DNA from: Alphaproteobacteria bacterium | Lineage (GTDB): Bacteria > Pseudomonadota > Alphaproteobacteria > UBA828 | DNA: 64,000 nucleotides | Direction: 5' to 3' | Assembly (NCBI GenBank): GCA_022826665.1 | Contig: JAJDUK010000047.1 | Span: forward strand, 62,001-126,000 | Shown here: piece by piece, positions 15,782 to 20,914 of the stretch | Numbering within the stretch: the stretch's first letter is position 1 | How the letters are laid out: every line of letters starts with the position of its first letter | Position numbers and translations under genes: made by a program | The notes under the pieces: model-generated | What the model saw: only the letters and a program-made list of their open reading frames with translations | Database searches by the model: none | Told to the model about the DNA's origin: nothing

Positions 15782-16363
15782 TTAGTTGGGCCGGGTAGCC
15801 GCTTCGCCGGCATCGATCTCTTGCTCCTCCAGTGAGGCACCGGCATAGCGCCGGTTGGCCTCGCCCAAGGCACTGCGCAGCGCCGCTACCAGGCTCGCCC
15901 GCTCCTCCGGCGCCAGGAACGGGCCGATGACGAGCGAGCGGCCGTGCGAGGTGAGCGTGATCTGGCTGTGGTGCTCCACCGGCTCGTCGAGGGCGACACG
16001 GAGCCAGTAGGGGTTGAAGCGCCATTCCGTCGTGCGGCCGTTGGGCGCAATCCGCCTGACCACAACCTCGTCTGCGGTGACACGGATGGTCTCCCGCAGG
16101 CGGCCCGAGCGATAGCTCAACCGAAATGCGAGATAAAGCAGCGCGATGTCGAGGCCGAAGAAGCCGAGCACCGGCCACGCACCCTGGAGCAGGAAGAAGA
16201 CGCCGAGCCCGACACTGATAACGATGACGCCGGCCATGACCGCGATGAAACCAGCGCGCCCCAGCGAACGATTGGGCGCGAGCTCCGCATCAAATATGAC
16301 CGGTGCGCCGGTTGCCTCTCCGCCGGCTGATTCGACGGGTGGGGGCGACGAGGATTGGCTCAT
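15782..16363 (-). CDS. DUF2244 membrane protein
   Basis: This 193-residue protein has an N-terminal cytoplasmic segment and two close hydrophobic helices at about 38-60 and 63-80. A soluble beta-rich domain follows with W-R-F-NPYWLRV and the conserved LTSHGRSLVIGPFL block. This is the DUF2244 pattern, common in alphaproteobacteria, sometimes beside respiratory or nitrogen genes. Function is unknown. It diverges from the lipoprotein gene, and the 170-bp gap should contain both promoters. Confidence 0.85.
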   Translation of the reverse strand: MSQSSSPPPVESAGGEATGAPVIFDAELAPNRSLGRAGFIAVMAGVIVISVGLGVFFLLQGAWPVLGFFGLDIALLYLAFRLSYRSGRLRETIRVTADEVVVRRIAPNGRTTEWRFNPYWLRVALDEPVEHHSQITLTSHGRSLVIGPFLAPEERASLVAALRSALGEANRRYAGASLEEQEIDAGEAATRPN

Positions 16364-16471: not shown

Positions 16472-16501
16472 TTGACACAATTGGCCGAATCGCCGTCAAC
16501 T
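16472..16501 (+). promoter_or_regulatory. Candidate sigma70-type promoter of the Lpp-like gene
   Basis: A perfect -35 hexamer TTGACA is at 16472-16477. The best -10 at 18-nt spacing is TCAACT (16496-16501), which matches only three of six positions. Transcription would start near 16508, about 25 nt before the start codon. The strong -35 and position support it; the weak -10 limits confidence. Confidence 0.4.
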
Positions 16502-16533
16502 CGGCAGCGACCTACTGGAGCCAGGAGGAGGCT

Positions 16534-16863
16534 ATGCTCAAAAAATCGTGGGCGGTGCGGATTGCCGTTGTCGCCCTTCCGTTGGCCGTCGCTGCGGGGT
16601 GCCAGTCCGCCGCCGAGCAGGAACAGGCGGCCGCTGCCATAGCCGGCGCCGAGGCGATGGCTACGGAAGCCATGCAAACCGCCAACCAGGCCCTGGTTAC
16701 GGTTGACGAGCTGCGCGCCGCCGTGGACGCGGCCAACCAGAGCGCGGCGGCTGCGGCGGCGGCGGCAGAGGCTGCGGCCGGCTCGGCCGAGGCAGCGGCC
16801 GAGGCAGCGCAGGCGGCTGCAGACAAGGCTGACCGCATTTTCCAGAAGGGGATGCGCAAATAG
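16534..16863 (+). CDS. Braun-type (Lpp/OprI-like) alanine-rich outer-membrane lipoprotein
   Basis: This 109-residue precursor has a signal peptide (MLKK, then a hydrophobic run) and a lipobox ending VAAGC with lipidated Cys23. The 87-residue mature part is a long alanine-rich helix with small heptad residues, as in the Lpp/OprI alanine zipper. It ends in KGMRK, with a C-terminal Arg-Lys as in E. coli Lpp (YRK), where the last lysine is joined to peptidoglycan. AGGAGG at 16523-16528 gives a very strong ribosome site 5 nt before ATG 16534, which suits an abundant protein. An L,D-transpeptidase gene faces it 37 bp away. Lpp function is inferred from architecture, not from close identity. Confidence 0.8.
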   Translation: MLKKSWAVRIAVVALPLAVAAGCQSAAEQEQAAAAIAGAEAMATEAMQTANQALVTVDELRAAVDAANQSAAAAAAAAEAAAGSAEAAAEAAQAAADKADRIFQKGMRK

Positions 16864-16880
16864 AGCCGGCAGGCGGCTCT
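16862..16880. terminator. Candidate bidirectional terminator hairpin between lpp-like and ldt genes
   Basis: AGAGCCG (16862-16868) and CGGCTCT (16874-16880) pair perfectly around a 5-nt loop, right at the end of the lipoprotein gene and before the end of the convergent transpeptidase gene. The following TCTTA is only weakly U-rich, so termination strength is uncertain. Confidence 0.5.
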
Positions 16881-16900
16881 CTTACGCCGCTTGGCCTTGG

Positions 16901-17890
16901 CTAACTGGGAGTTGCGGAGCGGTCCACGGTGACTTGGACAGGGACGCCGGACAGTTCCTCGAAAGCCTTGCGAATGAGGTGCCAGTCCAGACGGTCCTGG
17001 GCGGCACCGGCTAGAGCCTTGATTCGGAATAGGGCGTCGGCGCGAGAGCGCGCGTCGACGCTTTCAATTTGCCCGGTCCATTCCAGCTCGTCCGCCTGTT
17101 CGGCCTCGGGGTGTGCCTCCACATAGAGCTCACCGCCGTACCAGCCGATCTTGATCGCCTGACTGATGACCTGAACCGGCGTGCCGACCGGCACCAGCTC
17201 GAACAGCCGCGCGATATCCTCGGGATAGAGGCGGATGCATCCGTGGCTCACCCGACGCCCGACGCCCCACGGCATGTTCGTGCCGTGGATGAGATAGCTT
17301 GGCCAATCGAAATAGAGCGCATGGCTGCCGAGCGGATTGTGCGGGCCCGGTGGAACCGCCTTGGGCAGATGCGGCTTCTCGGCACGGATCGATTCCGGCG
17401 GGAACCAGATCGGCCTTTCCTTCTTGCGCACGATTTCGGTGCTGCCGAGGGGCGTGGCCCACCCCTCCTTGCCCACGCCGAGCGGGAAGGTCTGAGGTAC
17501 GGTGCCGTCTGGCCCGAAGTAATAGAGGCGATGCTCCGCCAGGTTGACGACGAGGCCCCGCCGCTCGGCATCGGGCAGGACGTGCGCGGTCGGCAGAACG
17601 ATCGGCGTGTTCTCGCCGGGAACCCAGGGGTCGATGCCCTGGTTGGCCGCGATCATCTCGACGTAGCCGAGGCCGTTGGCACGCGCAAGGTCGAGCAATG
17701 TGTCTTCGTAGGCGGCGACGACATGGCGCAGCGCGCCGATCATGTCGCTTGACCGGCGCTCGCCCTCGGTCTCGAGCGCCGCAGCACCGCCGGCTGGAGG
17801 CTCCGGCTCTTCGGCCCCGCTGGCCGCCGCCCACATCAGTGCCGCCACCATGACAGTTACGATGGAGAGAGTGGTCTGTCGCCGCTTCAT
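16901..17890 (-). CDS. L,D-transpeptidase (YkuD/ErfK family) with LysM-like region
   Basis: This 329-residue protein has a signal peptide (about residues 1-25), a LysM-like segment (about 55-105, ending PIVLPTAHVLP) and a YkuD catalytic domain (about 112-245). The catalytic site is His202-Gly203 and S-H-G-Cys218-I-R220. The domain order matches ErfK/YbiS-type enzymes, which act in the periplasm and in E. coli attach Lpp to peptidoglycan. It is the fourth gene of the packed minus-strand run cysK-alaX-sseA-ldt, 12 bp after sseA. It converges on the Lpp-like gene, its probable substrate. It could also make 3-3 cross-links or anchor other proteins. Confidence 0.93.
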   Translation of the reverse strand: MKRRQTTLSIVTVMVAALMWAAASGAEEPEPPAGGAAALETEGERRSSDMIGALRHVVAAYEDTLLDLARANGLGYVEMIAANQGIDPWVPGENTPIVLPTAHVLPDAERRGLVVNLAEHRLYYFGPDGTVPQTFPLGVGKEGWATPLGSTEIVRKKERPIWFPPESIRAEKPHLPKAVPPGPHNPLGSHALYFDWPSYLIHGTNMPWGVGRRVSHGCIRLYPEDIARLFELVPVGTPVQVISQAIKIGWYGGELYVEAHPEAEQADELEWTGQIESVDARSRADALFRIKALAGAAQDRLDWHLIRKAFEELSGVPVQVTVDRSATPS

Positions 17891-17902: not shown

Positions 17903-18772
17903 CTAAGCGGGGCCGCCGCTTTCCACCGGCGCGTCCGCACGACTCCCCCAATCGCTCCAGGAACCGTCGTAGACGGCGACCTCTTCGGCACCGATTGCGG
18001 CGAGCGCGAGCGCCAACGTGCACGCGGTGATGCCCGACCCGCAGGTGGCGATGACCGGCCGGGAGGGGTCGACGCCGGCGGCGGCGAACGCGCGGCGAAT
18101 GGCGGTAGTGTCGTTCAGCGCCCCGTCGTCATCATCGAGAACAGCGTTGAAGGGGACGTTGCGGGAGCCTGGAATATGGCCGCGCGGAAGGTCGGGCCGT
18201 GGCCCCGGATCCTCGCCCGTGAAGCGGGCGGCGGCGCGTGCGTCCACGATCTGCGCGCTGCCCGTGCCGAGTGTGGCGCGGATGTGCTCGAACGAGCGAA
18301 CCAAGGAGTCGTCGTGAGCCCGCGCCGTGAACGATCCTGGCGCGATCGCGGGCTCACCGCTCTCCACCGGGTGGCCTTCCGCCTGCCAGCGCGGCAGGCC
18401 GCCGGCAAGGATCGAGACGCGATCGTGTCCGAAGACGCGGAACATCCACCACACGCGCGCCGCGCTGTAGAGGCCCACGGTGTCATAGACGACGACGTGC
18501 GAGTCATCGCTGACGCCCAGCGCTGCGACGCTCTCCGCGAAAAGCTCCGGCGACGGCAGCATGTGCGGCAGCGACGAGTCGGGATTGCAGATGCCGTCGA
18601 TGTCGAAGAAGGCAGCGCCCGGAATGTGAGATTCCAAGAACTCGGCGGCCGGGTCGCGTCCCAGCGGCGTCAGGTGCCAGGAGCCGTCAAGCACCTGAAC
18701 AGCATTATCCGCGCCCAGAGTGGCGGCGAGCCAGCTCGATGTCACGACCAGCGGCGTCTCGTCTCCGCTCAT
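17903..18772 (-). CDS. sseA: 3-mercaptopyruvate/thiosulfate sulfurtransferase
   Basis: This 289-residue enzyme has two rhodanese domains, the first inactive and the second with catalytic Cys244 in a CGSGITAC loop. CGSG[VI]T-type loops mark the mercaptopyruvate branch, which moves sulfur from 3-mercaptopyruvate to a thiol or cyanide and leaves pyruvate. Typical blocks are SHIPGAAFFDID near residue 48 and the GLPRW segment. Its ATG overlaps the alaX stop (ATGA), so it is translationally coupled to cysK-alaX upstream. That fits cysteine metabolism. Confidence 0.93.
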   Translation of the reverse strand: MSGDETPLVVTSSWLAATLGADNAVQVLDGSWHLTPLGRDPAAEFLESHIPGAAFFDIDGICNPDSSLPHMLPSPELFAESVAALGVSDDSHVVVYDTVGLYSAARVWWMFRVFGHDRVSILAGGLPRWQAEGHPVESGEPAIAPGSFTARAHDDSLVRSFEHIRATLGTGSAQIVDARAAARFTGEDPGPRPDLPRGHIPGSRNVPFNAVLDDDDGALNDTTAIRRAFAAAGVDPSRPVIATCGSGITACTLALALAAIGAEEVAVYDGSWSDWGSRADAPVESGGPA

Positions 18773-20674: not shown

Positions 20675-20914
20675 ATGAGCGAACCAGTCGTCGCCCAGGC
20701 GGAACCCTATGAAACCGAGCTTGTCGCCGGAGAGAAGTATTTCTGGTGCGCCTGCGGCCTGAGCACGACCCAGCCCTTCTGTGACGGCTCCCACAAGGTG
20801 ACCGACATCCGCCCGATCGTCTTCACCGCCGAAGAGAGCGAGACCGCGTGGCTCTGCGGCTGCAAGCAGACCGGGAGCAAGCCGCACTGCGACGGCACCC
20901 ACAACACGCTCTGA
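20675..20914 (+). CDS. Double CDGSH iron-sulfur protein
   Basis: This small 79-residue protein has two CDGSH motifs. The first has Cys25, Cys27, Cys36 and His40 (PFCDGSH). The second has Cys61, Cys63, Cys72 and His76 (PHCDGTH). Each should bind one [2Fe-2S] cluster with 3Cys-1His ligation, as in the MiNT/CISD3-like class. No membrane segment is present, so it is soluble. The physiological role of bacterial members is poorly known; redox or Fe-S transfer is likely. Its neighbour cysK supplies cysteine, the sulfur source for cluster assembly, but that link is only positional. Confidence 0.93.
   Translation: MSEPVVAQAEPYETELVAGEKYFWCACGLSTTQPFCDGSHKVTDIRPIVFTAEESETAWLCGCKQTGSKPHCDGTHNTL

Follow-up and report, generated by a model that had tools for sequence, protein, structure and literature searches.

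The window, the whole 64,000-nucleotide stretch of alphaproteobacterial DNA analyzed here, contains a further instance of the known OprI/LDT-type tether locus, in which an alanine-zipper lipoprotein is encoded beside an L,D-transpeptidase (LDT). The locus combines the sequence architecture of a tether lipoprotein, purifying selection, a heptad period, intact catalytic residues in the enzyme, and a strong association of the two genes that extends across Alpha- and Gammaproteobacteria. Reasoning from the equivalent proteins of Pseudomonas aeruginosa, we consider it probable that the C-terminal lysine of the lipoprotein, Lys109, is joined to meso-DAP by the neighboring LDT to give a covalent outer-membrane tether.

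Organization of the locus

The lipoprotein gene and the LDT gene are convergent and lie tail to tail across a gap of 37 bp, with genes for a DUF2244 membrane protein and a rhodanese-type sulfurtransferase flanking the pair.

15782-16363, minus strand: DUF2244 membrane protein
16472..16533, plus strand: upstream block, likely promoter region, with a TTGACA-like element, CGAATCGCC(G)TCAACTC and AGGAGG, from an alignment of eight genus members
16534..16863, plus strand: lipoprotein gene, OprI/Lpp-like alanine zipper, 109 aa (ATG 16534, stop ends 16863)
16534..16599, plus strand: signal peptide up to the lipobox Cys, MLKKSWAVRIAVVALPLAVAAGC; C23 is invariant in the family
about 16591-16602, plus strand: codons of the lipobox A-A-G-C23, with the Cys23 codon at 16600-16602
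16858..16860, plus strand: codon of the C-terminal K109, proposed meso-DAP attachment point
16901..17890, minus strand: LDT gene, 329 aa (ATG 17890, stop 16901)
17231..17248, minus strand: LDT catalytic motif S215-H216-G217-C218-I219-R220, from the sequence
17903-18772, minus strand: rhodanese-type sulfurtransferase

The AGGAGG ribosome site and the CTTGACA...CGAATCGCC(G)TCAACTC block upstream of the lipoprotein gene are kept within the genus (eight members aligned), and a scan of the upstream region with a generic sigma-70 model returned no full promoter match. A terminator scan of the gap between the two genes found no terminator, and we therefore do not claim the AGAGCCG/CGGCTCT inverted repeat in the gap as one. 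Elsewhere in the window, positions 20675-20914 of the plus strand encode a 79-aa protein with two CDGSH iron-binding motifs.

The lipoprotein is an alanine zipper under purifying selection

The mature region that follows the signal part runs from C23 to K109, a length of 87 residues of which 44% are alanine, and closes with the motif KADRIFQKGMRK, whose terminal residues are Arg-Lys. The preliminary description had recognized the signal peptide, the lipobox, the alanine-rich zipper, and the C-terminal Arg-Lys, all of which we confirm at the exact coordinates listed, and had read them as the exact architecture of Lpp; the tether-lipoprotein architecture stands, but the family is a different one. 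The Pfam Alanine_zipper model PF11839 matches the protein at 36.6 bits (cut-off 23.1) over profile positions 4-69 of 69, and the NCBIfam Lpp/OprI model NF040598 gives a full-length but divergent match of 32.9 bits, under its cut-off of 43. PF04728, the model of E. coli Lpp, has no match to the lipoprotein at E<=1, and a search of the whole genome with this model gave nothing over the cut-off. Judged by these profile matches, the family is OprI/alanine-zipper (PF11839) and not E. coli Lpp (PF04728).

The lipobox Cys and the terminal Lys are invariant in 16/16 aligned family sequences. Among the periods tested for the hydrophobic positions, 3.5 is the strongest, which corresponds to a heptad, and length variants within the genus differ by exactly seven residues, one heptad. 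A structure model predicts a single helix from residue 4 to 108 (mean pLDDT 82). A PDB search with the lipoprotein profile returned nothing significant, the top matches being designed helical repeats, with E. coli Lpp at E 0.67; the viral contigs searched held no relative of the lipoprotein.

GC-rich DNA commonly holds alanine-rich frames, and the opposite strand is also open at this position, over a frame of 115 aa, so that the small frame could be a by-product of composition and not a gene. Comparison within the genus refutes this reading, to which we assign practically no probability: changes at the third codon position dominate (295:160:1028 differences by codon position, all pairs of the window and seven genus members summed), and dN/dS between the window and its genus mates is 0.09-0.24. 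Other genera also conserve the lipobox, the Lys, and the ribosome site.

The convergent gene encodes an intact L,D-transpeptidase

As the preliminary description had proposed, the convergent gene encodes an ErfK/YbiS-type LDT in which the SHGCIR motif and His202 are present. The protein belongs to the ErfK/YbiS/YcfS/YnhG type and has the LdtA/B/C/E architecture, with a signal peptide, a LysM-like N-domain, a YkuD domain (residues 112-241; 97.7 bits in Pfam), and a C-terminal domain; H202, G217, C218, I219, and R220 do not vary among 27 homologues. The motif is of the Arg form, SxGChR, which is the transpeptidase form, and not the SxGChA of the DpaA-type releasing amidase (PMC10434034). The closest solved fold to the AlphaFold model of the enzyme (mean pLDDT 86.8) is 4LZH, a Klebsiella LDT that matches over nearly the whole length (E 2.8e-29; TM 0.74 normalized to the query and 0.87 to the target), with other LDTs, including the YcbB/LdtD type, far behind at a TM of at most 0.39 on the query.

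Only two YkuD proteins are encoded in the genome. The second (contig 32, 4995-5462) has no signal peptide in the listed frame and carries TAGCVAV in place of the motif; on these features it is probably not a periplasmic LDT. The window LDT is apparently the only exported-looking YkuD enzyme of the genome, leaving no other YkuD candidate there for anchoring. The YkuD proteins of the genome likewise include no DpaA-like (LdtPae3-type) releasing enzyme, so that the P. aeruginosa enzyme of this type has no counterpart among them.

The two genes are associated across the class

The preliminary description had suggested a search for co-occurrence in related genomes, and the association is borne out: among family relatives with either gene, 19/19 have both, convergent and adjacent. 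Two genomes of the family are without both genes, one of them 98% complete and keeping a single short YkuD protein. A class-wide sample of 385 alphaproteobacterial genomes contained a full-length LDT of this type in 45 and a checked short PF11839 lipoprotein in 19, PF11839 matches in frames over 200 aa having been discarded as chance coil matches. All 19 genomes with the checked lipoprotein also have the LDT, adjacent in 18 (Fisher p about 3e-20 for co-occurrence, not kinship-corrected), and OprI-type pairs occur in about a dozen families of the class in this sample. Most families have the pair in convergent orientation, a few in tandem (G373, G160, G334, G151, G252, G224); since adjacent pairs occur in both orientations, proximity has outlasted rearrangement. 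In more than half of the LDT-bearing alphaproteobacterial genomes PF11839 gave no match; the enzyme may therefore act on other substrates, or its partners may escape the model, as in G012.

Across 80 named loci, the nearest convergent lipobox frame beside the LDT ends in Lys in 49/51 cases, the two exceptions being spurious long frames that are fully overlapped by other frames. A C-terminal Lys is found in over 20% of E. coli periplasmic proteins and lipoproteins (PMC12274547). Mature lengths of the 75 zipper partners favor 66, 73, 80, and 87 residues (mod 7 = 3 in 32, relatedness uncorrected), and these one-heptad steps are seen in both Alpha- and Gammaproteobacteria.

The preliminary description had raised the prospect of a distinct lineage of the lipoprotein tether. 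This holds for the sequences, as the tree separates the LDTs and lipoproteins of Alphaproteobacteria from their gammaproteobacterial counterparts, but not for the tail-to-tail layout, which is also present in E. coli and in Pseudomonas-, Sedimenticola-, and Steroidobacter-type genomes.

Comparison with Pseudomonas and E. coli

In Pseudomonas-type genomes (L197-L208), oprI is convergent with an LDT gene and OprI has the form MNNVLKFSALALAAVLATGC...KASRK. In P. aeruginosa PA14, LdtPae2 (PA14_27180) is the sole OprI-anchoring enzyme and yields Tri-KR muropeptides, in which the tripeptide bears Lys-Arg, and OprI ends in Arg-Lys, as the window lipoprotein does (PMC10434034); from the gene-type match in Pseudomonas-type genomes, PA14_27180 would be the neighbor of oprI. 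The two systems thus have in common a PF11839 zipper, a C-terminal Arg-Lys, and an LDT of the same architecture. They differ in that the window coil is longer (87 mature residues against 64 in the Pseudomonas-type OprI), that the window proteins lie on the alphaproteobacterial branch, and that attachment in the window is our reading by analogy. Because LdtPae2 alone anchors OprI and oprI lies tail to tail with an LDT gene, the link between Lys109 and meso-DAP is the most likely outcome here.

In E. coli K-12 (NC_000913.3), lpp (1757421-1757657, plus strand) and ldtE (1757721-1758725, minus strand) are tail to tail, 63 bp apart. The statement in the preliminary description that the E. coli genes are far apart is correct for the Lpp-anchoring genes ldtA, ldtB, and ldtC, which are located elsewhere, but fails for ldtE. 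LdtE is reported to be a 3-3 cross-linker (PMC12729407), and adjacency is for this reason not proof of anchoring; in E. coli a cross-linking LDT holds the place of the presumed anchoring LDT of other lineages. Lpp and the window lipoprotein are both coils ending in Arg-Lys, with the difference that mature Lpp has 58 residues and belongs to PF04728. LdtA, LdtB, LdtC, and LdtE have the same three-part architecture as the window LDT, and several LDTs of this clade are present in E. coli, against one in the window genome. In our LDT tree, a quick one with SH-aLRT support only and many open forks, the four E. coli enzymes cluster together, with the alphaproteobacterial and the remaining gammaproteobacterial branches alongside, so that the window LDT is as closely related to the anchoring enzymes of E. 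coli as to the cross-linking one.

Proposed mechanism and alternative readings

We propose that the lipoprotein would be exported, lipidated at Cys23, and taken to the outer membrane, where its alanine-zipper coiled coil, probably as a trimer, would span the periplasm; with all 87 mature residues in helical form, the coil would be about 13 nm long. The LDT would cut a tetrapeptide stem at meso-DAP, forming an acyl-enzyme on Cys218, and would pass the acyl group to the epsilon-amine of Lys109, so tying the outer membrane to the peptidoglycan. This chemistry is that shown for OprI and LdtPae2 of P. aeruginosa (PMC10434034).

The enzyme could instead act mainly as a 3-3 cross-linker resembling LdtE, or perform both reactions, with the adjacency of the genes an old relic. 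Its best NCBIfam score is to the LdtE equivalog (NF047955; 168.9 bits, far under the cut-off of 480), E. coli LdtE occupies the same position beside lpp, and LDT function does not follow lineage and so is not to be read from it (PMC10434034). A relic should not, however, remain adjacent through inversions and in many families, nor be lost jointly with its neighbor, and without anchoring by this LDT the C-terminal Lys of the lipoprotein would be left with no known enzyme in this genome; the A1 profile, moreover, rates E. coli LdtA, LdtB, and LdtC (222-227 bits) slightly over LdtE (213). We therefore regard the relic reading as unlikely, and note that anchoring and an LdtE-like cross-linking activity with a conserved neighbor are compatible and not exclusive. 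We give still less credence to a further reading, in which the LDT has beta-barrel proteins as substrates, joining them at their N-termini, and the lipoprotein serves as a free spacer of the outer membrane. Tethers of this type are reported for the alphaproteobacteria Brucella and Agrobacterium and for Coxiella (PMC8263019, PMC12729407, PMC11527210); they too are covalent links between outer membrane and peptidoglycan made by an LDT, but their substrate is the N-terminus of an outer-membrane protein and not a lipoprotein Lys. For the two clear OMP_b-brl proteins encoded in the window genome, the mature forms are predicted to start near E-Q-A-G and Q-E-G-E, and not with Ala-Asp or Gly, and a free spacer would leave the invariant terminal Lys and the F-x5-K motif unexplained.

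Short lipoproteins in Micavibrio-type genomes

In Micavibrio-type alphaproteobacteria, at least 18 loci (L064, L070, L071, L072, L081, L082, L084, L085, L086, L089, L092, L095, L099, L116, L119, L130, L177, L181) have a short, coil-less lipoprotein convergent with the same type of LDT. These lipoproteins have mature lengths of 35-61 aa, often contain proline, have a central (A)PYxxERT-like stretch, and end in Lys at position 0, for some loci by selection of the search. Their C-terminal ends are in register with those of the zipper lipoproteins: Phe at position -6 is found in 18/18 of them and in 48/79 zippers, and Asp or Glu at -9 in 18/18 and 60/79, respectively. All four loci in which the DNA between lipoprotein and LDT was examined have a small frame there, on the strand of the lipoprotein. 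Pfam and NCBIfam assigned the short lipoproteins to no family, with weak signal-peptide matches only; among the literature titles found on Micavibrio lipoproteins, none pointed to a description of a short lipoprotein family, nor did any of those on lpp/ynhG adjacency point to a description of that arrangement.

These sequences suggest the hypothesis that F-x5-K is a C-terminal tag common to both kinds of lipoprotein and read by the LDT, for which the coil would be dispensable. We give even odds to the broader proposal that a lipoprotein and its own LDT are an old, conserved module of the Pseudomonadota, in which a short linker took the place of the coil in the Micavibrio type while [DE]-x-[V/T/M]-F-x5-K was kept, making these loci an undescribed coil-less covalent tether.

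Significance

Lpp-like proteins, when counted by PF04728, are found only in a subset of Gammaproteobacteria (PMC8263019), a count that leaves out the OprI type. Since the pair recurs across Alpha- and Gammaproteobacteria, a Pseudomonas-like covalent outer-membrane tether probably occurs more widely than published accounts state, and the OprI-type pairs of alphaproteobacterial families would make the Lys-type lipoprotein tether both wider and older than stated. Genomes with one exported-looking LDT would offer a simple assignment of enzyme to substrate, and new peptidoglycan-bound lipoproteins could be sought through the neighborhood of the LDT gene.
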